Shown here: piece by piece, positions 5,310 through 19,345 of the stretch
Layout of the letters: every line of letters begins with the position of its first letter
How positions within the stretch are numbered: position 1 is the first letter of the stretch
DNA from: Isoetes taiwanensis
Lineage: Eukaryota; Streptophyta; Lycopodiopsida; Isoetales; Isoetaceae
Assembly (NCBI GenBank): GCA_021234155.1
Contig: JAJEKV010000016.1
Coordinates: forward strand, 18,680,620 to 18,744,619
Direction of reading: 5' to 3'
DNA length: 64,000 nucleotides
The notes under the pieces: generated by a model
The model's input: the letters and a program-made list of their open reading frames with translations, nothing else
What the model was told of the DNA's origin: nothing
Database searches by the model: none
Translations under genes and position numbers: made by a program

Positions 5310-6981
5310 CGTTCCACATATTTATACGCATATTTAAGTATAAATACGTGACACGTCACTATGAATAATTAATGGCACATTAATTATTCATAAGCTAAGG
5401 TTAGCTGTGTTAATAATTAAATTATAAAGGTGGAAACCTAACCAAAACCCTAATTCGAATTTAGGGCTTATCCTAATATTAAAAAGGGCTAAAATACCAA
5501 ATTAGCTAATATTAACCAATGTAGAGCATGCCACCGCCCAAATCGATTGGGGGCAGGTAGGGTTTCCATTTTGGACACCCAAATTAGGGCTTTGTGCCCC
5601 AATTCAAATTGGGAGCAATTGGGGATGGAGGAGGAGGAGCAAAGCAGCCAGCGCCTTCCGCTTAGTCGAGATGGAGCAGCCCAAGACCGATTTGACTCGT
5701 TAGTCAAGAGGTTATTTTGTTGATTTATAGCATAGCACCTCTCTATGGTGTGTTCTCTCTCTCTTTTCCTGTGGTTTTACCTGCTAGACTAACCCTTGAT
5801 TGATATGGTGAGTATTCTTATCTCTAGTCTCAGACGCGTGCTTTTGGTTGATGGTTTAGTAGTTCTTTGCTTAGTTAGCACTCCTGATATGGGGGATTAC
5901 GGGGGTAGAGACCTCTGAGCCCATGTATTGTAGTATGCTCCTAGATATAGCCCCCAGATTATTCCCATTAGATGCGCCTGTGCACAAGAGCCCACCGGTC
6001 ATAGATGCTATGGACCCGCTTAGCACCGTATAAGGAACACAAGGGTGAAGTGGTTGGTGGGGTCTTGCACCTAACATAAAAGGCTCCGGGACTCCTATAG
6101 TGAGCTAGGCCTGATAGCCGGTCACGAGAGGGGCGGGTATGGGTCCGACACTCCCCGGTGTAGAGGTGTGACCGTATGGGGCACCTTTGCACTTTGAGTA
6201 GATTTAGGGCGAGTAAGTCGGGTAATGGATGCGGGTCGCCGATGCGCACGTATTCTCTAGCTCACCCATGGAACCACCGCGATTCTCGAAGGGGACGCTT
6301 CCCGACCCGCCTCATCGGACCGGGGCTTCATGAACCCGGAGTAGGCTCAAATAGCGGTGATGCCTCGAGCCCGCTCTCCTGGAAGGCTATAGCGACGCCA
6401 TAGCGTGAATTGACCCATCCGCAAAGTGTGCACAGGAGGGGCGGATGGAGTGGACAACCCTAGCCGATGTTCTATGCCAGCCAATGCCGTTTATACCTGC
6501 AGTCACGATCTCTTGAGGTCGAGCCGCCGGTCCATCCTCATCGGAGTCCGAACCGGGGTAGAACCCGGGTTTGGGGTGTTTTTCTTAGGTTTAGATGCAT
6601 ATTCTTTGTCGTTGGTACTTGGATGCATGTGCCACCCTTCGTGGTGGTTATTTATATATGATTTATGATGTGTGCTAACATGTATTCACGCTTCCCGACG
6701 TAGGAGCCCCATTGAAGGCGTGGGCGAATGACCCTTTCAGTGTCCTTCTTTTCGGCATCATATTATAGATGACCCGAAATAGACGGAGGGTTCTCGCCAT
6801 GGCGAAGTTGGTCGCCATGGGAGGGAAAGTCCCGTATGTATACGTCCGAGGGTCGATATGTTCGTGAGCCGCCACAAGAATGAAGAAATAGAATAGGTTT
6901 GAGGCTTGCTTTCATATGAAACGTGGAATTTAATATTGCATGTGCAAAAGCTAGGTCTTTGCTAGCTGAATGTTGCGGCAA
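5305..6981 (+). mobile_element. Gypsy 3' LTR, right end not resolved
   Basis: TGTGACG opens the LTR after the polypurine tract. AT-rich TATA-like sequence lies at about 5325-5345. The rest to 6981, including the GC-rich 6100-6560 part, has no credible coding frame, and only one copy is in the window. The true LTR end is not evident; the Penelope-like repeat begins at 6982 and may have truncated it. The reading frames here (for example 5968-6249 minus) overlap on both strands and show no family motif. Confidence 0.5.
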
Positions 6982-8962
6982 AAAAAAAACCTTTAAATTT
7001 GTCTTAAACACAAACTTTTTACCATACTTGGACTTTGCAAGACCAATTCTGGTACAATTTGCAGCCCTAGCTTAAGACAGGTGTCTCTTAACCTAGGCCT
7101 CTACTTGGCCATATGTAAAACTTTAATCTAACTCAGAACATAGTCATATTGTATCCATTTTTACAAAAATAAGCTTCCTGGTATTATATTGATAAAATAA
7201 TACATTTATATTGTTCCATATACTTCATAATCAAGAAGTAATTGCATAAAAAACATTTAACCTTCTCATTTACATAAAATAATAGAGGAAAATACCCTGT
7301 TTTAGCAGATTTCCATTTATCCATTGTTCTACTTACAGTTTTCTTGTGTCATAGCTTTACCCAATCATAATTTTGAGAGAACAACTTCAAAGAGTAAGAA
7401 ATCATGTTACCTGTAATGAAACCAAATGCAAGTTAGCCTTATACAGGGTAATTACATAAGCCATTACAGGTAAGCTAAAGATTTCTTAGGCTTATCGCCC
7501 TTCACTTTGTTTTGTTCAAGAACTTTTAAGATCATCACACTGCCATCATCCAGTTTCCAACAGCAGCCTATATATACTGCCTTTGTTCACAATACATAAG
7601 AATAGATCCCAATATACTTGATATCATACTTCCTATATGCAACATCAAAGTCAGCATGCAAATTTCTACTTAACATTTACTCAAAATAGATAGTTAACAA
7701 ATTCCTCCAGAATCCTCCCAATCTGTCAATTATAATATGTGACTATCAAATTGTTTATTTAATCTTTTCGGATCTATGTCTCAGATGCATCAAATACCAC
7801 ATGGGACCTCACAAGATACTCTATGCTTTACAAGACATAATGTATAAGTAGAAATCTCAAATTCCTTAGATCAAACCTTTTGTTTTTACGATTTTGATTG
7901 TCGGTATCTTGTGCAAAGCAAAGATTAGCCTTCTTGTTTATTGAATGTACATGACACTTTGCTCCCCTTCATCGATCCACCATGGATATAATATTTTCAG
8001 CTTTCTCATTTTGCTCACATGCCAGATCTGCATCATTCACTTCTTTCTCATTCCCCTTTGCACTTGAGTCAGCCTCTTTTCCTGCTGCATCTAGCTCCAT
8101 GTTCCCACAAGGAATCACTACTTTTTTGTGATATTGGAAGAATTTTGGCCTCTTTGAAGCCCCAAATTTCTTCTTCAATCCTTTTTCCTCGTAGCCATAT
8201 TCAGATCCCCTTTCTTTCTAGTCATGGCTCTCAAGAAATCTCCTACTCTATTTCTATAAGGGATGCAAACCCTGCCACAAAGAATTTCTACACTGCCAGG
8301 GCCATGCTTTTTGCCCTTGAGAGAATCGGCAGCCTGTGAAGAACAGCATGCAAATACAACCAAGTATATATTCATCTAAGCAGTCCTTAGTACCGTCAGC
8401 GCCGTACCTTATAGAACTGTTTCATACCGAAAATCAATCCGGCCATTTGATCTTGGTTCACTCTCCCAAGATGCCATATCGGCCTATGTTCGCAATAAGC
8501 CCACGATTTAGGTTTTACCATTTTTCAATATTCTCAATAACCCTAGTGCTTGCTATTATCCTATTTTATTATGTCAATTTTTCTGTAGTATTATCAAATT
8601 TCCTTACCATGATACTTGACCACACTTGTATATGTAGCCCCACTCCTCATAAGAAAATCCATTTACCAGTGTTTTTTGCTCCAAGCTTCGTAGTTGCATG
8701 TGTCCTAACCTGCCCTTTCCAACAATTCATTATTAATCCCCTTTGTGTCTTCTGGTCCTGTACACATATTTCCATTTCGATGTTAGATGTACACACATTC
8801 ATGTTCTAATATATAAAGCCCATTAACTTTTGTAATCCAATGAGTCAAATTAGCCAAAAGAAGAACTTTCATTTGCACTCCTCATATTTACCCAATAATA
8901 TCCATTATCCATGATACATCTCATAATATCCCTGTCCAGTTTATGTTCCTGCTTTTTTAATA
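6982..8962 (-). repeat. Terminal repeat A, main part
   Basis: Matches 17327-19311 nearly base for base, with small indels. It resumes at 13226 after the Helitron. At its low-coordinate edge a run of A (AACCTTTAAATTTG context) is shared with repeat B, and sequence identity stops exactly there. Confidence 0.85.
7969..8375 (-). pseudogene. Broken copy of the terminal-repeat coding exon
   Basis: This is the repeat-A counterpart of the exon at 18218-18673. The frame is cut by small indels, for example around 7975 and 8165-8190, where repeat B reads on without interruption. The translated pieces (69 and 66 aa) match the repeat-B protein on either side of the breaks. Damage in A but not B indicates that A is the non-functional partner. 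No separate function is inferred. Confidence 0.75.
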
Positions 8963-9367
8963 TCTACTTTGTTAATTTGGAAATTTCCGGTATGGTCGAA
9001 AATGTTTTTGGAATTTTTTTTTAATTGATTTCCTAAGATTACATGGGTTTTAGCTACCGGATAAACTTGCCGACTTCCAAAAATCGAAAAAAAAATCCTT
9101 ATGTTTCTTAGGCCCGTTTACCGTCTGCATATCCGGCATGTCCCGGAAGATTTTCAACGAGCGCGAAGTTTTTGGCATGGACAAATTTGGCATGGCCAAC
9201 ATCTGTCTGCCTGCCAGATGCATTAGACGAATGGCTCATGGCTCCATTTGGGATCTTCTATCTTATCTGATAGTTTCGGCCATTACAGATATTTAGAGGG
9301 ATTTTCCTGTGCGGCAAGGGTGCTCAGGTTTGATTGGTACTGCAGTTTGGTTTCGTCGCGAATGGTC

Positions 9368-9755
9368 CAACGGATTCTGCCATATGATGTGAGCATAAGC
9401 TTTCTTTTCCTTTAGGTTTTCGTCAGAGCTCCTTTGAAGCTCCATATTTGTCTTGCTATATTTTTGCATGATATATGTGCTAACTAGAAGGAATCAGAAA
9501 GGTGATTTGTGCTCAGCATTTACTCTTCTATGCCAATCAACTCAAGAGAATGTGAAGCATGCAACGGATTCTGCGATATGATGTGAGCATAAACCTTCTT
9601 TTCCTTTAGGTTTTCGTCAGAGCTCTTCTTTGAAGCTCCATATTTGTCTTCCTATACTTTTGTTATCATGTGCTAACTAGAAGGAATCAGAAAGGTGATT
9701 TGTGCTCGATCTTTTGTACTGCATCAATATGCAATTAAGATTAACAATGCAGTAT
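9368..9755 (+). repeat. Tandem duplication inside the Helitron, ~194-bp period
   Basis: The stretch beginning CAACGGATTCTG at 9368 recurs at 9562 with a few differences. Within it, AGCATTTACTCTTCTATG recurs near 9517 and 9799, so part of the captured exon was copied too. Confidence 0.8.
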
Positions 9756-9786
9756 GCAATTGGGATTAAGGATGGTTTGTTTGCAG

Positions 9787-9944
9787 GTTTCATCATCGGT
9801 AGCATTTACTCTTCTATGTCAATCAACTTAAGAGAATGTGAAGCATGATGTTCATCTTCATAGTTTTACCAAAAGAGTTTTGGATGCTATCTCAGCATGT
9901 TCACAACAAGCTGGAAAGAGCAATTCTCTGCTTCGTCCTACAAG
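9787..9944 (+). pseudogene. Captured exon fragment 1, with a nonsense change
   Basis: A TTTGTTTGCAG acceptor precedes a stretch that reads VSSSVAFTLLCQST, a TAA stop, then ENVKHDVHLHSFTKRVLDAI (continuing to LLRPTR). The earlier partial copy near 9517-9560 has CAA (Gln) where this one has TAA, so a single C-to-T change broke the frame. It resembles a host-gene exon carried by the Helitron. I do not recognise the parent gene and name none. Confidence 0.5.
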
Positions 9945-10556
9945 ATAAGTTGGTTTTCATGGACAATGTTTTTCAAGATCTTTCTAGCATTCAAATGCAT
10001 GCATTTTTAACCTATTTGCATCTAGAATAGATTGACAATAGTGCCAAGATTCTGCATTCTCCTAAGTCTATGTTGTCTCATCAATTTATTGGATTTTTAT
10101 TTGATTCCTGTGTTGTTGTGATCTTTACTACCATATGTTCCAGCATTTTCTCATTGTGTGTCATCTAGAATTTAGTCTTCACATCTTTTCTTAGGCTTTG
10201 TGATTCGTCCTTCAAGGCTTTAGCATCAAATGGATTGAGCACGTGAATTGGTGTAAGTGAATTGCTGGCATTTTATTTCCCTTTCCTTATGGCTAAAGAG
10301 TTCGCTTTTGGTGATCATTTTAGAATCGTTTTGACACTGGCTATGGCCAGTGCAGATCCTAAATGCTTGCTTAGTTGCATGCAAAGCTTTGTGTCTTTAA
10401 GTTATGGTCGAATAATTTGTTAATAAGGGAGACGATTGTTTTCATCATTTTCCCTATTTTTTGCAAGGCTCAATGCATAACAAGATGGTTTTAAATGAGA
10501 TATTGTGACAAACGGACTACCTTGCCTCATTTTTGTTCGTTTTCCTTTTTGGGCAG

Positions 10557-10641
10557 GAATCAAAACATTTCTTAATGAAGTACCAGATGAACAGAGGATT
10601 ACATATTCAAGCTCTTGCTTGCTTAGGTTCAGCAGTCCAAG
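10557..10641 (+). pseudogene. Captured exon fragment 2
   Basis: Flanked by a good acceptor (tttttgggcag) and a good donor (AAG|GTATGT). The 85-nt exon reads ESKHFLMKYQMNRGLHIQAL and on to GSAVQ, leaving one extra base (phase 1). That base completes a codon with the two leading bases of the exon at 11535. Agreement of phase between two exon-like islands is good evidence for a real captured gene piece. The gene family was not recognised. Confidence 0.55.
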
Positions 10642-11534
10642 GTATGTATCTATATCATTTCTCAATTGATTATCCTGCTTTTTGATGAAACTACGTCTTC
10701 CTTATTCATTTTTTGTTCAAGATGTGATTTGTATTTCATGAAGTAAAAAGGTCTATTCCCGTGGTTAAAAGATCTGCTCCTTTTCTATGAGACATGTAAT
10801 TAGGTTATACTAATTCACTATGATGGCATGGTACAAGGCCTTTGCATCTAACATTATGTGAGGGATGGAATGCAGCGTAATTGTGCCATGTCAATGATGA
10901 GGATTTTATTGTATTCTATCACAGTTTGATTAGCTCCTCTTTGCATTCTTTATCTAGGACATTAAAAAAATTGCCTACTTCCGTTATTACGTGGAGCTAT
11001 AAAATGTTTTCAAAGGGCATGCATATTTCGTTGAGCTTGCAGTATATAGATATGTCATGTTTCTCTTCTAAGTTCAGATTGAAACATTTCAATGAACTGT
11101 TGAACAACCTGAGAGGAAACAACTTGGGAAGACCTAAGTTCAGATGGCGGAACATATATGATTTGGGGTTCGTGGATTTCCAGGGCATACCGGATGTTGC
11201 CACACAGAATATGCATGGATCTTAGTGGGATCTATAAGCATATCTTTAGAGGATTTGCAAGCCGGGTGGTTCCCACGTCCATGTTCTCCACAGGTGATTG
11301 TTGCTTTACCCTCATTATCTTTGGTAATTGGTTTTGTCTGGATTTGCACGAGCAGGGATTTTTCACGGTTTGAGAAAAAATAGGGTTTGAGTTTTTTTCA
11401 ACAGGTTTTACCCCGCAATGGCCTCGCATCAGACTCTATATGCAGACAAGCCAGGCATGGCCTGGCAGACTTATGGTATAAAAAATGGCCTCTTGCTAAT
11501 AATATGGTGATCAAATAATTGTTTTCTTCCTCAG

Positions 11535-11599
11535 CCATAGTAGCTCTCCACGAATTGGATAGAACTGTGAATGAAGCAGAAAGAATAAAAGAAGCTGAG
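11535..11599 (+). pseudogene. Captured exon fragment 3
   Basis: The acceptor ttcttcctcag and donor GAG|GTAAAT bound 65 nt. Read in the phase left by fragment 2, it gives AIVALHELDRTVNEAERIKE and a further AE, a charged helical segment. It probably comes from the same parent gene as fragments 1 and 2. The ~0.9 kb between fragments 2 and 3 behaves as intron. The parent gene is not identified. Confidence 0.55.
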
Positions 11600-11604
11600 G
11601 TAAA

Positions 11605-11860
11605 TTAAGCAGGTCCACATGAATTGTGACATTTTTATTTACTAGAGAACATGATTATGTTATAGCTGGTGTTCAGTTAGGCAAATCCACATGAATTGTA
11701 AGACTCATCTGCCCACATGAACTGTGACATTCATGTTAAACATTTCTTCATTTGAACTGTGACATGCATGTGCCCACATGGACTCTCATTTAGGTGCCAC
11801 ATGAACTGTGACATTGGCAATGTTTCTTCATTGGATATATTGTGTATAAACAAGCATGTG
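11605..11860 (+). repeat. Dispersed short repeat, CCACATGAACTGTGACATT type
   Basis: Variants of a ~19-bp word (ccacatgaaYtgtgacatt) occur at about 11612, 11690, 11716, 11753 and 11798 with irregular spacing. No coding sense is seen. Confidence 0.6.
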
Positions 11861-13197
11861 AACTGTACATGAAGCCTATGTGCAGGATCCAGTAGTAACT
11901 TGATGTATGTTATTCTTTTCAACACAGTAACTAAGCTACTCAAATGCAGAATATTTATTTTCAAAGTGGCATTGGATCTTGATTCTAATTATAATCAATG
12001 GAGCAAGTCCTAGATGTGCATGAGTATTAATAGATAGTTTCAAATATAATTTAAGAGGCATTTATTTGTGAATGGCACCCACATATTTGTCAGAAATCTC
12101 TTATTCCACAAGTGCTACAATTGTATGAAGCTAGGACATTGTGTTTGACATCAGGTGCAATGAAAAAGAATGCAAATCTATATAGGAGAATCACCATAGT
12201 GCACCATGGTCCAATCGTGGACGGAATGCCGATGTAAAACTATAGGCTTATAGGATGGCATGTCAAAGCATAAACTAAAATGTCCAATAGTAAACCCTTA
12301 CTTGCACCACCATGTGCTTATCTAGAGATCACTATACAAAACTTCTCATTGTAACATTTAGACTAAGCACCATCAAATCAACACAAGCTCTTTCCAACAC
12401 GCATCAACGCATGTGCTCAACCAAATTCCACCAAGCATTGTACGTGCCTATGTGAATATAATATCATAAAAAACCAACTACCTCTTTCCATACTAGAGAA
12501 TATTTAATATTTAAAGTTCATACATATGCATCTACAAACAACTATCCCATTTTATAAACCCTCGACTTAAAAAAGTTCACTACACATAGCCCAATCCCAT
12601 TTTATAAACCACCAACTTGAAATATAAAGTTTACTACACATAGCCCAATGTTCTCTCTCCATATTACATATTAGCTAATATTATGTTATGGTGAAAACTC
12701 CCAAACAGAATCAAAAGTTTCCACATCTAATTTGTCCATTTCGTTTAGCATCATATAATAGCATTCAACAATAGCTCACGTTAGCTCTATACGTTATTGA
12801 CCTCCTTCTCCTCATCATTATCTAATATCACAATGTGACATCCATGTTCAACTTTAACAATTGATGGTCTACCTACAATCTGTTTCGACTCACTTACAAT
12901 ACATGCATAGAAATATGTTTCTGTGCCACTACATTTAAGTTCAAAAAGCTATAACTTCAAGACAACCACCATTCCTACAGAAAAAGAACTATCAACATCC
13001 AATTTACTTAAACCAGGTCACGCCAGGCAATGTGCTTTGATTCACACATTGCTTACGCCATCACAAAGCTATACAAAACTACATGTGAGTCAAAGAAAGA
13101 GCTCATGGAATTTTTGAAAGCAAATCTCTTCCCCATCTAGCAATTTCTAAATGGTGAGGTCACTTCACTTATTGACATCTTTTCAAATTGTTACTAA

Positions 13198-13225
13198 GCC
13201 CGGCAACGCCGGGCACCATAACTAG
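13198..13225 (+). other. Helitron 3' terminus: hairpin and CTAG
   Basis: GCCCGGCAACGCCGGGC (13198-13214) forms a perfect 7-bp stem with an AAC loop. ACCATAA and the terminal CTAG (13222-13225) follow, then host T. This is the canonical Helitron termination signal. Confidence 0.95.
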
Positions 13226-13257
13226 TACTCATTATATTTCAAACATTATAATAAAAA
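13226..13257 (-). repeat. Terminal repeat A, remainder after the Helitron
   Basis: TACTCATTATATTTCAAACA and the following bases match 19312-19343. With 6982-8962 they complete terminal repeat A. Confidence 0.85.
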
Positions 13258-13391
13258 ACCCTGCCTCCTACCGTAGGACAGGGGGACCTTGTAGTACTTT
13301 GAACTTTGTCTTTCTATCTTTTTGGTAACAACAAGGAGAGTAGGACCTTGTTGTACCACAAGGCCCTACCCATCCTATGTCTATTACCTAC
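13258..13391 (-). other. 3' untranslated region of the retroelement with a GC hairpin
   Basis: Between the reverse transcriptase stop and repeat A, 13259-13284 folds as an interrupted inverted repeat (CCCTGCCTCCTAC against CGTAGGACAGGG). A second related pair (aaggagagtaggacc / ggccctacccatcc) lies at 13335-13375. These could act as an RNA structure near the 3' end. No hammerhead core (CUGANGA with GAAA) was seen here. Confidence 0.45.
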
Positions 13392-15455
13392 TCAAAGCAT
13401 GGATTTTAGACTTCTTACCATATCTCCAATGCTGTATCCCAGTCCTGGAAATTTATCATTCTCCAAAGTGCATAAAACTTTCTTACTGATGTCGTACTTA
13501 TTGAACCGATTATAGCAGAAGGCATCAATTAGTTCTACCAAATCCCTAGCTGCCTCAATAGCATTAGAATGTGTATAAATATAAGGCATTACCTGTGAAA
13601 TTATAACTTTTGATGCTTGTGAATAGGGTCTGCAACTTTCAGCTTTAATATACTTGTATACTGCAAATGGTAGTCTTTTCCTTTTATCAAACCTGTTTAT
13701 GTTGAAAATCCCTTTATTGTGATCAAGGACACTGATATTGATATTCAAGAAGCTGCATTCGTATCCCACAATGTCATTCACTCCCTTATACTTTGTTTCA
13801 TCTTTGATCCCCAGTATCTCCATGTTGTATATTGTAATTTTGGAGCCTTTTGTGAGGAATTCCTGCAGGTCTCCACCATTCAACACATTTAAATCATCAA
13901 TGTATCTTCCTGCATATTGGAATCTGTATATATCAGAAATTCTGTCCGCATTTGCAAGTTTGAATATGAATCTCAATTCATACCAAGCTAGGTATAAGTT
14001 GCACCACGCAGGGCTACATGCAAATCCCATGGGGATCCCTTTAATTTGTTTCCAGACTTTGTTACCCATTTGTAAGTAACAATGACTGAGTAACCACTGA
14101 TTCATTGCTTTGAAAGCAACTTTTTCCATACATTTCCAGCTCACATATTCTTTTTGTTTAGCTGTTCTTACCCATTTAACTATGATATCTTCCCCTTTTA
14201 CTTTGTATATAAGGTCAAATCTGCTCTGTTCTACTATCATGTATTCCCATGTGAGGTCTATAATTTCATCCAGGATTTCAATAATCCCCTCATTCCCATA
14301 TAGGGGAATAGTTTCATAGCACCTTGTAATATCAGCAGAAAATACATTATAAATTTTGGCTGGTAAGTTGAGCATCACATCATAAGTAGAATTGATTAAC
14401 CAACATGGGTTAACCCTTTGTTGCCCCCATAACCTTAGCCTGGCAGTTTTTTTGTGACATATTTTGGGCCAGATTTCCAAGCAACTATTCAGTATAGCTG
14501 TTGCCAGTTTTGCACATTCGGAAAACATCGTATTATGCGCATTGGTGATCCATCTATACTCCTGTTTATGTGCTTTATAACTTGCCATCAAATAGGGGAG
14601 TTTATGTGATCCAATTTTCTGCTCACCCATCATCTCCAAAATCTCCCTTTCACATGTATGCTTTATTTTTTCTGGAGATTCCGTGCATTTTTCAAAATCT
14701 TCACCATTCAACCTATTTATAGCAGCTTCAGCAATATGCACAGGGCAAATAAATGCTGCATTGTTACATGCCTTAACCACTTCAGCAACAAATATGTTAC
14801 GGTTTAACCAATTCATATTTTTTATCACCTCTGGTTCTCTCCAAAGGAACCTCTTCTGTTTTAGTTTGCACTTCAATTCACATATCTCAGTATGTGCTAA
14901 CTGTCTTAGCATGTTACATAGGTTTTGTTTATCCTCTTCAATCAAATCTAGCAAGTCAAATTTGTGGACTGAGATAAATTGTTGGCAGGCTTTTGAAAAA
15001 TCATCCATAAAATCCTGCACACTTAACCCATCATCAGGTATGTGATTTAAACCACATGCAAAAGCATTTCTGAGTTTTGAGCAGTGTATAATGGCAAGGT
15101 CAGTAGTTCTCACATGCTGGATTTTAGGATCAATATAATTCTTAAGATTGGGATTTGCACAGGGGCATTGATTCTTTGTTCCATCCGCAAAAACTCTAAA
15201 TGGCTTGCACACTTTATGTCTGATCTGGTCAATATACTTCCATGCAAATGTAGTATTTTCCACTAATTTTGTTCCTCTGTCTGCCAATGCCTCAAATAAA
15301 ACTATATGGAAGATTTCTTTTGTCTTGAAGTTATCTAAAGCTTTAGATAAAAAGGTAAGGTGGATCACCTTGGTTTCTTTCTTTTCTTTAACCACAACCA
15401 GGTGCCTTTTTCCATTGATGTCTTTGTTGATAACTCTGGTCTTGTCATCATAAAC
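13392..15455 (-). CDS. Penelope-like reverse transcriptase (exon, no ATG of its own)
   Basis: Copies element RNA into DNA. In the 667-residue frame counted from codon 15395, the pre-A block PYLMASYKAHKQEYRWI lies near 267-283, motif A (FSADITRCYETIP) near 352-364, motif B (GIPMGFACSPAWCNLYL) near 453-469 and motif C (YIDDL) near 498-502. The catalytic aspartates of A and C are present. DI..CYETIP, IPMG..CSP and FLNINI fit the Penelope/telomerase-related class rather than LTR or LINE enzymes. No RNase H, integrase or GIY-YIG nuclease follows the stop. The codon at 15395 is GTG. The frame opens a further 20 codons to 15455, where a TAG stop lies inside a tgtag|GTT acceptor. Translation must therefore reach it by splicing. 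There are no internal stops, so the copy may be recent. Confidence 0.85.
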   Translation of the reverse strand, partial: VYDDKTRVINKDINGKRHLVVVKEKKETKVIHLTFLSKALDNFKTKEIFHIVLFEALADRGTKLVENTTFAWKYIDQIRHKVCKPFRVFADGTKNQCPCANPNLKNYIDPKIQHVRTTDLAIIHCSKLRNAFACGLNHIPDDGLSVQDFMDDFSKACQQFISVHKFDLLDLIEEDKQNLCNMLRQLAHTEICELKCKLKQKRFLWREPEVIKNMNWLNRNIFVAEVVKACNNAAFICPVHIAEAAINRLNGEDFEKCTESPEKIKHTCEREILEMMGEQKIGSHKLPYLMASYKAHKQEYRWITNAHNTMFSECAKLATAILNSCLEIWPKICHKKTARLRLWGQQRVNPCWLINSTYDVMLNLPAKIYNVFSADITRCYETIPLYGNEGIIEILDEIIDLTWEYMIVEQSRFDLIYKVKGEDIIVKWVRTAKQKEYVSWKCMEKVAFKAMNQWLLSHCYLQMGNKVWKQIKGIPMGFACSPAWCNLYLAWYELRFIFKLANADRISDIYRFQYAGRYIDDLNVLNGGDLQEFLTKGSKITIYNMEILGIKDETKYKGVNDIVGYECSFLNINISVLDHNKGIFNINRFDKRKRLPFAVYKYIKAESCRPYSQASKVIISQVMPYIYTHSNAIEAARDLVELIDAFCYNRFNKYDISKKVLCTLENDKFPGLGYSIGDMVRSLKSML

Positions 15456-15645
15456 CTACATATATGTTTAGAGCAAGCATCCATAAATATAAGAAAAGCT
15501 TTTTTATAAATTTCTTTGGTTCAAGGAACCAGGCCAAATGGCAAGAAGGTAATGAATACCAAATATGTAATGTATTCAGATTATGAATATAACAAAATTT
15601 TGGGCTATATAAGCTACAAGAAATGAAGGGGCATTCTACCCATCA

Positions 15646-17214
15646 TTATATCACAGAATTTTCCACTTCGTTTGGAGCATATTCTTCAACATATGCTATC
15701 TTATTTCCACCTTTAGTAATGGAATACTCATCCAAGTTATTGCTGTCTGCAGATTTTTGCACTGGTGTATTAGCCATAATAGGAAGATTCACTGTTTGCT
15801 TGGGATCCATAGTGATCCTAGGAGGCATCTTGAGAGTGGCTTTTGTAGCTGTATTTCCCCTGCTTGCACCTCTCTTATTAACAAAGGTTGGTCTGTTACC
15901 CGGGCTTTGGAACTTCAAGAAAGTAATGGGTTTTATCATTTTTTCCGCTATGTCAGCAAGCTTATCATTGCCAAATGCTATTTTCAAGTTTCTATCCTTG
16001 GATTTAGCATAAGCTGTGGTCATCTCAAACATGACTTTTCTTGCTTCCAAGTATGATACATATGCCAAAACAGCAGGTCTGAGTGTACCATTTATTAATT
16101 TGGACAGAGCCACCATTTTTCCAAGTGGAGATGTGTCTGGGTAGATCTGATCCAGATTGTTCAAAAGAAACCAAATGCCATGGTCTAACCATATGATACC
16201 ACAGCCACACTTTTCTTCTTTTTTTGCAACAAATCTTAGGTTCTTTTCACATTTGCAAGTGAAGTATGGGCAATGTGTGCGCCATATACGATTTAAATAA
16301 AAATCATCTCTCTTCATGTTAGGGTAGGCCATGTGACCTTTTTGGCAAATCTGTATTCCTCTTTTCTTGATGCATTGTAAGTCAAAGAACTCCATATCAA
16401 ATGGTATATTACCTTCCAATTTGTTGAAATATTTATCCAACTTATGCGCAGCAGTATTGGCAGCCATGATCTCATCCTTAGTGATACCAGCAAGCGCACT
16501 CCAAGTGTCCATATTGATAGGGGCTAATGCACCCAAATTTTGACTCCTCCATATAGCGTGGTCATACATTGCACTGTAACATTCCACAGCTTGTTCGGTA
16601 ATTACTGGAAAACATGCAGAATTAGCCAAATTCAGGTTTGGCACTTTGTCTTCTACAGCAGTAGCTTCCATATTTGCTTCTTTCAGCATATCTTCATATT
16701 CATGCTGATCTTCTTCTGACAGATCTTTGTCCGAGAATAAACAGTTTCCCATCTCTTCTTGTATGCTAACATCCACCTTATCAGTAACTTCCTCATCAAA
16801 AGAAGAAACCAGATCATTTGCAGTTTCTAATGCAGTCAACCCTTCCACAAATAGTTTAGCCATGTTATCTTCCAGGCAAGTTCTATTGAAAAAAATACTA
16901 TTTACCTCAGAATAAAGGGTATTAATGCACTCTTTGCATTTAGCATACTCAAAATTGATCTTCTTCATCATTTGATACAGCTTGAACCATCCGTTGAATC
17001 CAAGGAATGTAACAAGAGATTTACTTTTGTCACCAAGGTTAAATTCCTTAAATAGGATAAAAGAGTGTACTTCCTTGTTCTTGATGCAAGCTATGATGGT
17101 TTGGACTGCAAAACTAGGGCTGTTGATGCCAAATTCATTGTACTTCAGTTGCACAAGCTCTTTTAACCACTGGTTATTGATCTCCATATCTTCATCATTT
17201 ATTTTTAAAACTTC
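15646..17214 (-). CDS. Retroelement ORF1 protein, 513 aa from its first ATG
   Basis: Intact 513-codon frame from the ATG at 17187. It also opens nine codons upstream (EVLKINDED) to a ttatgtacag|GAA acceptor at 17214 in phase 0. An acidic stretch lies at about 130-185. A Cys/His-rich segment at about 270-325 (CIKKRGIQICQKGH, then CPYFTCKCEK and CGCG) could bind zinc. The C-terminal ~80 residues are basic and Pro/Asn-rich. No database family is recognised. Its place upstream of the reverse transcriptase and on the same strand suggests an RNA-binding or particle protein like other retroelement ORF1s; that role is inferred. It lies 190 bases before the reverse transcriptase exon. Confidence 0.7.
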   Translation of the reverse strand, partial: EVLKINDEDMEINNQWLKELVQLKYNEFGINSPSFAVQTIIACIKNKEVHSFILFKEFNLGDKSKSLVTFLGFNGWFKLYQMMKKINFEYAKCKECINTLYSEVNSIFFNRTCLEDNMAKLFVEGLTALETANDLVSSFDEEVTDKVDVSIQEEMGNCLFSDKDLSEEDQHEYEDMLKEANMEATAVEDKVPNLNLANSACFPVITEQAVECYSAMYDHAIWRSQNLGALAPINMDTWSALAGITKDEIMAANTAAHKLDKYFNKLEGNIPFDMEFFDLQCIKKRGIQICQKGHMAYPNMKRDDFYLNRIWRTHCPYFTCKCEKNLRFVAKKEEKCGCGIIWLDHGIWFLLNNLDQIYPDTSPLGKMVALSKLINGTLRPAVLAYVSYLEARKVMFEMTTAYAKSKDRNLKIAFGNDKLADIAEKMIKPITFLKFQSPGNRPTFVNKRGASRGNTATKATLKMPPRITMDPKQTVNLPIMANTPVQKSADSNNLDEYSITKGGNKIAYVEEYAPNEVENSVI

Positions 17215-18217
17215 CTGTACATAATTCCAGATTTATAACAAGTTAGTAAAAATTATTATTATTACATCTGCAATTTTTTAACCAAGACAGAGGTCTCTGG
17301 TATAACCATAGAACTGAGTATGAAATAAAAAAACCTTTAAATTTGTCTTAAACACAAACTTTTTACCATACTTGGACTTTGCAAGACCAATTCTGGTACA
17401 ATTTGCAGCCCTAGCTTAAGACATGTGTCTCTTAACCTAGGCCTCTACTTGGCCATATGTAAAACTTTAATCTAACTGTAACATAGTCATATTGTATCCA
17501 TTTTTACAAAAATAAGCTTCCTGGTATTATATTGATAAAATAATACATTTATATTGTTCCATATACTTCATAATCAAGAAGTAATTGCATAAAAAACATT
17601 TAACCTTCTCATTTACAAAAAATAATGGAGGAAAATACCCTGTTTCAGCAGATTGCCATTTATCCATTGTTCTACTTACAGTTTTCTTGTGTCATAGCTT
17701 TACCCAATCATAATTTTGAAAGAACAACTTCAAAGAGTAAGAAATCATGTTACCTGTAATGAAACCAAATGCAAGTTAGCCTTATACAGGGTAATTACAA
17801 AAGCCATTACAGGTAAGCTAAAGATTTCTTAGGCTTATCGCCCTTCACTTTGTTTTGTTCAAGAACTTTTAAGATCATCACACTGCCATCATCCAGTTTC
17901 CAACAGCAGCCTATATATACTGCCTTTGTTCACAAAACGTAAGAATAGATCCTAATATACTTGATATCATACTTCCTATATGCAACATCAAAGTCAGCAT
18001 GCAAATTCCTACTTAACATTTACTCAAAATAGATAGTTAACAAATTCCTCCAGAATCCTCCCAATCTGCCAATTATAATATGTGACTATCAAATTGTTTA
18101 TTTAATCTTTCAGATCTATGTCTATATGCATCAAATACCACATGGGACCTCACAAGATACTCTATGCTTTACAAGACATAATGTATAAGTAGAAATCTCA
18201 AATTCCTTAGATCAAAC
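17215..18217 (-). other. Inferred intron joining the terminal-repeat exon to ORF1
   Basis: A donor at AAG|GTTTGATC (exon end 18218) and an acceptor at ttatgtacag|GAA (exon start 17214) are both phase 0. The edge of terminal repeat B (17327) lies within it. Confidence 0.5.
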
Positions 18218-19345
18218 CTTTTGTTTCTGATTTTGATTGCTGGTATCTTGTGCAGCAGCATTAGCCTTCTTGTTTATTGGAATGTACATGACACTTTGCT
18301 CCCCTTCATCAGGATCCACCATGGATATAATATTTTCAGCTTTCTCATTTTGCTCACATGCCAGATCTGCATCATTCACTTCTTTCTCATTCCCCTTTGC
18401 ACTTGAGTCAGCCTCTTTTCCTGCTGCATCTAGCTCCATGTTCCCACAAGGAATCACTACTTTTTTGTGATATTGGAAGAATTTTGGCCTCTTTGAAGCC
18501 CCAGCTTTCTCTTCTTCAATCCTTTTTCTGGTAGCCATATTCAGATCCCCTTTCTTTCTAGTCATGGCTCTCAAGAAATCTCCTACTCTATTTCTATAAG
18601 GGATGCAAACCCTGCCACAAAGAATTTCTACATTGCCAGGGCCATGCTTTTCGCCCTTGAGAGAATCGGCAGCCTGTGAAGAACAGCATGCAAATACAAC
18701 CAAGTATATATTCATCAAGGCAGTCCTTAGTACCGTCAGCACCGTACCTTATAGAACTGTTTCATACCGAAAATCAATCCGGCCATTTGATCTTGGTTCA
18801 CTCTCCCAAGATGCCATATCGGCCTGCCCAGTAGATGTTCGCAATAAGCCCACGATTTAGGTTTTACCATTTTTCAATATTCTCAATAACCCTAGTGCTT
18901 GCTATTATCCTATTTTATTATGTCAATTTTTCTGTAGTATTATCAAATTTCCTTACCATGATACTTGACCACACTTGTATATGTAGCCCCACTCCTCATA
19001 AGGAAATCCATTTACCAGTGTTTTTTGCTCCAGGCTTCGTAGTTGCATGTGTCCTAACCTGCCCTTTCCAACAATTCATTATTAATCCCCTTTGTGTCTT
19101 CTGGTCCTGTACACATATTTCCATTTCGATGTTAGATGTACACACATTCATGTTCTAATATATAAAGCCCATTAACTTTTGTAATCCAATGAGTCAAATT
19201 AGCCAAAAGAAGAACTTTCATTTGCACTCCTCATATTTACCCAATAATATCCATTATCCATGATACATCTCATAATATCCCCGTCCAGTTTATGTTCCTG
19301 CTTTTTTAATATACTCATTATATTTCAAACATTATAATAAAAAAA
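17327..19345 (-). repeat. Terminal repeat B (pseudo-LTR), uninterrupted
   Basis: Direct copy of 6982-8962 plus 13226-13257. It keeps the Helitron empty site at 19311/19312 and an intact coding exon. Confidence 0.85.
18212..18742 (-). CDS. Retroelement 5' coding exon in repeat B (unknown protein)
   Basis: The open frame is 176 aa, but the likely exon is 18218-18673 (152 codons). It starts after a ctgttcttcacag acceptor at AADSLKGEKHG and ends KQK before a GTTTGA donor. The N-terminal MNIYLVVFACCSSQ part would then be intron. The protein has the segment CGRVCIPYRNRVGDFLRAMT, then a Lys/Arg-rich region (RKKGDLNMATRKR, KRPKFFQYHKK), then an acidic, Asn/Gln-rich tail. No family is recognised. Phase 0 at both ends matches the acceptors of ORF1 and the reverse transcriptase, so one spliced polyprotein is possible. 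A candidate upstream exon starts with an ATG near 18822 (MASWESEPRSNGR), but its donor does not fit cleanly. Confidence 0.6.
   Translation of the reverse strand: MLTVLRTALMNIYLVVFACCSSQAADSLKGEKHGPGNVEILCGRVCIPYRNRVGDFLRAMTRKKGDLNMATRKRIEEEKAGASKRPKFFQYHKKVVIPCGNMELDAAGKEADSSAKGNEKEVNDADLACEQNEKAENIISMVDPDEGEQSVMYIPINKKANAAAQDTSNQNQKQKV

Follow-up and report, generated by a model that had tools for sequence, protein, structure and literature searches.

Penelope-like elements carry a reverse transcriptase (RT) that shares ancestry with telomerase, and their described features are repeats, direct or inverted, that hold the coding start, as well as 5′ truncation and retained introns (PMC3846280, PMC6431247, PMC9033089, PMC5718144). 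The pseudo-long terminal repeat (pLTR) of Pen2a_Av, for example, is 218 bp long (PMC3846280). Members that lack an endonuclease have two open reading frames (ORFs) and are associated with telomeres (PMC6431247); among plants, such endonuclease-deficient elements are found in Selaginella and in conifers (PMC9033089). Here, we describe an element of Isoetes taiwanensis that lies in a window of 64,000 nucleotides (contig JAJEKV010000016.1, positions 18,680,620 to 18,744,619; the whole stretch analysed). It probably belongs to an autonomous, dispersed, multicopy retrotransposon family whose RT is of the Penelope/telomerase class and in which no endonuclease is recognisable.

Like Athena, Coprina, and the endonuclease-deficient elements of Selaginella and conifers, the Isoetes family has an RT of telomerase-like predicted fold encoded second of two ORFs, retained introns, and tandem as well as 5′-truncated copies, and no GIY-YIG domain was found. 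Unlike them, its copies are dispersed inside chromosomes and end in T-runs instead of telomeric repeats, both ORFs appear to need a leader exon that lies in the terminal repeat, no hammerhead was found, and ORF1 has no match. The family, therefore, fits the endonuclease-deficient class in layout and RT type but differs from it in lacking the link to telomeres. With canonical Penelope elements (Dryad, Poseidon) it shares direct pLTRs containing the coding start and, probably, the RT ancestry common to TERT; unlike these GIY-YIG elements, it has repeats of 2 kb rather than 0.2 kb and a separate ORF1, with no endonuclease domain found and no short target duplication seen. The bdelloid rotifer Terminons are also endonuclease deficient and also have extra ORFs, head-to-tail arrays, and a structured 3′ end (PMC6431247), but they reach up to 40 kb compared to ~8 kb in Isoetes, where junctions are free of telomeric repeats and no hammerhead, GDSL, exonuclease, or Rep match was obtained.

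Results

The initial annotation had placed a spliced Penelope-like element at 13392-18673. Its three minus-strand frames (RT, 15455-13395; ORF1, 17214-15649; and a leader ending at 18218) were recovered unchanged, but the element itself is larger and runs on the minus strand from 19344 to 6980, its second repeat being split by an insert. Read along the element, the order is T-run, 2-kb repeat (with leader exon and intron), ORF1, RT, structured 3′ untranslated region (UTR), 2-kb repeat, and T-run. The features are as follows (a slash within a motif marks the splice boundary).

17318..19344, minus strand: TR1, the 5′ terminal repeat, ~2.03 kb, 97-98% identical to TR2
18218..18565, minus strand: coding part of leader exon 1 (putative), from ATG 18565 (MTRKKGDLNMATRKRIEEEK...) to the phase-0 donor AAG/GTTTGA after 18218
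15646..17214, minus strand: exon 2 (putative), ORF1, 522 amino acids (aa), from acceptor CAG/GAA to its own stop
15456..15645, minus strand: interval between ORF1 and RT, containing the putative 3′ splice site of the RT exon and a GCCATTTGGC-TGGTTC motif that is conserved (alignment of 17 copies)
13392..15455, minus strand: exon 3 (putative), RT, 687 aa, acceptor TAG/GTT, stop at 13392-13394
13318..13372, minus strand: conserved 3′ UTR RNA, helices A and B sharing a CAAGG strand, with covariation
13259..13285, minus strand: terminal hairpin and purine-rich tract CCTACGGTAGGAGGCAGGG, directly before TR2, kept across copies
13226..13258, minus strand: start of TR2, 33 nt, identical to 19312-19344; TR2 resumes at 8962
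8963..13225, plus strand: Helitron-like insert nested in TR2, 4,263 bp, foreign to the element; ends and target read directly
6980..8962, minus strand: remainder of TR2, a 97% BLAST match to TR1, ending in AAAGG-T10, the 3′ boundary of the element

TR1 opens with TTTTTTATTA behind a long T-run, includes the leader exon along with the larger part of intron 1, and ends in AAAGG-T7. TR2 of the same copy is 98% identical to it across 2.0 kb and contains a second copy of the leader exon whose frame is damaged (match at 7879-8408, with stops). The 3′ boundary at 6980 was set with the help of paralogous empty sites. The 33-nt direct repeat 13226-13258/19312-19344 was considered as a target-site duplication and rejected, as these 33 nt form the beginning of each terminal repeat. 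The Helitron-like insert has a 5′ TC, a hairpin (GCCCGGCAACGCCGGGC), and a 3′ CTAG, sits between A and T, and is bordered on either side by TR2 sequence. This insert has no long ORF and is probably non-autonomous.

The family is abundant. In the 1.66 Gb of genome searched, whose genes for light-harvesting proteins mark a photosynthetic eukaryote, the matches listed numbered at least 65 for the RT and at least 82 for ORF1. At many places the two occur together, with ORF1 immediately preceding the RT. For the leader exon, 150 matches were listed, many of them paired around RT-containing bodies. Four other whole copies were examined. Three of them (L040, L041, and L043) have direct terminal repeats of ~2.2 kb that are bounded by T-runs, one of which lies shortly after the RT stop and the other ~110-120 nt ahead of the ORF1 acceptor; the fourth (C996) has a longer repeat. 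Terminal repeats within copies are 94-98% identical, and a tandem array is present on C963. Two further loci of genome G000 deserve mention. At C1028:3945755-3949912, two leader-exon matches lie just 3.9 kb apart, perhaps in a shortened, non-autonomous derivative. At C990:29542-46045, the two sequences that flank the window element are found again with 93-94% identity, ~16 kb apart and with leader-exon matches between them; this is a duplicated or allelic locus with the same insertion.

Closer examination of the frames supported much of the proposed splicing. In the window copy, the RT acceptor (TGTAG/GTT), the ORF1 acceptor (TACAG/GAA), and the leader donor (AAAAG/GTTTGA) are all in phase 0. 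As annotated, the RT frame has no ATG and opens at its acceptor: in all 30 loci compared (the window and 29 others), the first in-frame stop upstream of the RT frame is the TAG of the acceptor itself, preceded by a T-rich tract and located at the same alignment position, and no conserved ATG is nearby. Among the 22 clean RT copies in the alignment, identity to the window protein is 56-67%. The ORF1 frame likewise opens directly after a TAG in 12 of 16 copies, where the window copy has CAG at 17214, and again no ATG is conserved. The leader exon, in contrast to the two others, begins with a conserved ATG and an M-x-RKKGDLN-type motif (8/8 copies) and closes 342-384 nt past this start with a phase-0 donor, [CA]AG/GT, which is also present in every one of the eight. 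Hence, the proposed donor end of an exon at 18218-18673 was borne out, and its coding start was moved from 18673 to the ATG at 18565. Indeed, since the RT TAG acceptor is kept in 30/30 loci, the putative junctions are not due to chance; they persist even between copies whose protein identity has fallen below 60%. The suggestion of retained introns also held, as the acceptor and intron-like sequence upstream of it are present in each of the 30 genomic RT copies.

One part of the earlier proposal was not supported, namely that a single transcript of all three exons encodes one protein. In clean copies, ORF1 has retained a stop of its own, and a donor conservation test revealed no conserved donor near its end; therefore, a three-exon protein fits less well than alternative splicing in which the leader is joined to either ORF1 or the RT. 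Both proteins are apparently made only by splicing the shared leader exon onto either the ORF1 or the RT exon, and two messages with a common leader are the simplest reading of the conserved sites. Just after TR1, at 17240-17320 of the minus strand, lies a putative hairpin whose loop is TTATA (window version, TCTATGGTTATACCAGAGA); its stem letters vary among copies with pairing kept.

The RT has the expected catalytic motifs: an alignment of 22 copies revealed an invariant D375 (motif A), GIPMG..SPAWC (motif B), YIDDL (motif C), and an invariant KxHK, and 21 of the 22 members matched RVT_1 in Pfam (best, 6.9e-7). An AlphaFold model built from these copies had a mean predicted local distance difference test score (pLDDT) of 70.8 and a predicted template modelling score (pTM) of 0.61. 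With this model, Foldseek returned six matches at E<=0.001, all of them telomerases (best, 4.5e-6). In VIA-align, rows 1 to 15 were all TERT, with Z from 9.8 to 8.0 and most alignments extending across residues 76-687, whereas the long interspersed nuclear element (LINE) LINE-1 reached 7.2 and group II enzymes reached 6.6. Sequence identity in the TERT alignments was 7-14%, and the aligned TERT range covers the telomerase RNA-binding domain (TRBD), the RT, and the C-terminal regions. Z itself is modest, and the call as telomerase-like is made because many TERT chains agree over most of the RT length and score above all others. Thus, the predicted fold best matches telomerases and not long terminal repeat (LTR) or LINE enzymes; the initial annotation would have been contradicted by a tree placing the RT with either of the latter, and the structure searches used in place of a tree gave no such placement.

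No relatives of the RT were confirmed in viral contigs or prokaryotic genomes. Pfam searches with 22 RT, 12 ORF1, and 3 leader proteins gave no endonuclease match (GIY-YIG included), in keeping with the original description of a Penelope/telomerase-type retroelement without a recognisable endonuclease, and the element proteins gave no Pfam match to integrase, RNase H, gag, or protease either. ORF1 is 510-535 aa long across copies, with 63% mean column identity and conserved Cys/His residues (C287, H300, C321, C326, C328, and C342 in the numbering of P0002) that make a zinc ribbon possible. It had been described as unrecognised and stayed so: searches against families and PDB, including one with a sequence profile, found no convincing match, no relatives were confirmed in viral contigs, and the predicted structure (pLDDT 45) was too poor to interpret.

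At their 5′ ends, the window copy and L040, L041, L043, C1094, C1065, C908, C985, C1040, C1070, C306, and C920 all show T_n-ATT(A); the sampled 3′ ends have AAAGG-T_n, and flanks are unrelated among sampled copies. No target duplication beyond the T's was seen at the sampled copy ends or at the window site. A/T runs of at least 10 are rare in the window (only 7), and two of them are the ends of the element. When joined, the window flanks match two paralogous places without the element, and these hold only a short TTCTTTTCTT tract and no longer duplication; therefore, at least part of the long T-runs is gained during insertion. The joined flanks of C985 and C1094 gave no clear empty sites. The 3′ flank of C985 is a repeat that bears a T-run at other loci too, and L040 follows immediately on an older copy and its T-run tail. 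The insert at C996 starts at RT residue ~109 and continues across a repeat of 3.8 kb and then a whole unit as far as the usual 3′ end, which implies that the 3′ start is fixed, that the 5′ end varies, and that the template exceeds one unit in length. The copies are situated in chromosome interiors, at a median of 2.55 Mb from the contig end (30 copies).

The 3′ UTR contains a conserved RNA with two helices, A (GTAGGGCCTTG/CAAGGTCCTAC) and B (GGTACAACAAGG/CCTTGTTGTTACC), which are mutually exclusive because the CAAGG strand is common to both. Helix A has 11 pairs, with standard pairing in 97% of the alignment cells and 7 cells changed on both sides; in helix B (12 pairs), the values are 95% and 12 cells. 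Both helices exceeded all 500 shuffles in paired cells, doubly changed cells, and covariation score, as well as all slid controls in paired cells and covariation. This RNA may serve to recruit the RT, to guide processing, or to act as a switch. The purine-rich hairpin follows 3′ of the helices, directly before TR2. A further conserved sequence lies between ORF1 and RT in nearly all aligned copies (15456-15645, minus strand, in the window); it consists of GCCATTTGGC and, next to it on the 3′ side, a GGTTC..GAACC palindrome.

Apart from the element, G000 holds an intron-free COX1 of 538 aa on C681 compared to a COX1 in pieces over ~26 kb on C163; these are two different mitochondrial-type genes, one of them perhaps from an associated organism.

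Discussion

In our model, transcription would start in the first repeat, and the leader exon would be spliced either to ORF1 or, skipping ORF1, to the RT exon, so that both proteins share start codon and N-terminus. Three observations suggest that the template would be an unspliced RNA of more than unit length, in dimeric or circular form: genomic copies keep their introns, a body of unit length has leader repeats on both sides, and the start of one insert falls within an upstream RT. Probably recruited through structures at the 3′ terminus of the RNA, the RT would start cDNA synthesis at the U-tract after AAAGG, with an A-rich target end as the primer. Synthesis would usually stop at the next U-tract (TTTTTTATTA), at a distance of one unit and one repeat; here, the cDNA could pair through its A-tract with the T-tract of the target. 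Either the host or ORF1 may supply the nick or break.

The 2-kb direct repeats, 94-98% identical and with sharp ends, together with the purine-rich tract exactly before TR2, give the element an LTR-like look, and one may imagine that the repeats arise by strand transfer with GGAAGGAGGCAGGG as the polypurine tract. We consider such an LTR-type element very improbable: the predicted RT fold is telomerase-like and not retroviral, the proteins typical of LTR elements have no Pfam counterpart here, the repeats begin with T's instead of TG...CA, nothing beyond T is duplicated at the target, and the C996 insert, which begins inside the RT and has a longer repeat, is a product that LTR replication does not give. 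Membership in the LINEs (non-LTR) was discarded in view of the 2-kb direct repeats and the lack of an endonuclease match. A telomerase-like RT, two ORFs, tandem copies, and no endonuclease would equally suit an element of the Athena/Coprina/Terminon type that uses chromosome ends, but the interior position of the 30 copies and the T-run junctions, which are free of telomeric repeats, leave that reading with very little probability.

The other two alternatives concern expression and descent. A single spliced message encoding a leader-ORF1-RT polyprotein would agree with phase 0 at every exon junction and with scattered phase-0 AG/GT sites inside ORF1 (column 64 in 8/12 copies, column 411 in 5/12). 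However, a stop closes ORF1 in every clean copy with no conserved donor nearby, and the column-64 site is missing from the window copy and its use would remove most of the conserved ORF1, all of which makes a polyprotein improbable. A deep lineage of the TERT/Penelope class outside the accepted Penelope-like elements would account for the absence of any family match past a weak RVT_1, of relatives in the viral and prokaryotic collections, of a recognisable ORF1, and of a detected hammerhead, and for a T-tract in place of endonuclease or telomere targeting. On the other hand, terminal repeats with the start of coding, 5′ truncation, tandems, and retained introns are all described for Penelope-like elements (PMC3846280, PMC6431247, PMC9033089), and we regard such a placement as rather unlikely.

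A retrotransposon of the Penelope/telomerase class with no recognisable endonuclease stays the favored reading, although several points weigh against it. The assignment to this class draws on layout and on structure matches of the RT; the RT model is of moderate quality, the Z of ~8-10 to TERT is barely above the level that VIA-align calls common, and an RT sequence profile found no match among PDB chains. ORF1, which could not be folded, might hide a nuclease or another function. Splicing and its pattern are deduced from sequence conservation, and the template form and T-tract priming are deduced from the structure of the ends. Finally, no hammerhead ribozyme was matched, and Rfam gave no family for the window, L040, and L043, although a divergent ribozyme may be present.

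TERT itself provides the top structural matches of the RT (residues 76-687); unlike TERT, the Isoetes enzyme belongs to a mobile, multicopy element with terminal repeats and ORF1, and it has the invariant KxHK. In foamy viruses, the RT is made from its own spliced pol message with a shared leader. The likeness is one of expression logic only, as RT and replication are unrelated. A leader within the repeat that serves two alternative coding exons, T-tract ends, and the 3′ RNA are undescribed in the Penelope literature cited here; the primary reports on endonuclease-deficient elements and on Chlamys/Naiad lie outside this comparison, and therefore, we claim no priority. There is a real chance that the Isoetes family is a separate lineage. 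More specifically, and only tentatively, it may represent a distinct telomerase-like lineage in which two alternatively spliced proteins derive from a terminal-repeat leader, an intron-bearing RNA of more than unit length is the template, integration proceeds at T-tracts through pairing of U-tract and A-tract with no endonuclease of the element's own, and a bistable 3′ RNA replaces the hammerhead.

In sum, telomeres are the main known location of endonuclease-deficient Penelope elements, and the Isoetes family bears on how they may spread inside chromosomes. With many open-frame copies in the interior, fixed T-tract ends, and empty paralogous sites, priming and integration are directly testable. 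Splicing appears to be conserved and obligatory in a retroelement that still keeps its introns, which would imply two fates, message and template, for RNA from one unit. Furthermore, a mobile RT with a predicted telomerase-like fold, one region of which pairs with the telomerase RNA-binding domain in structural alignments, bears on the origin of telomerase.

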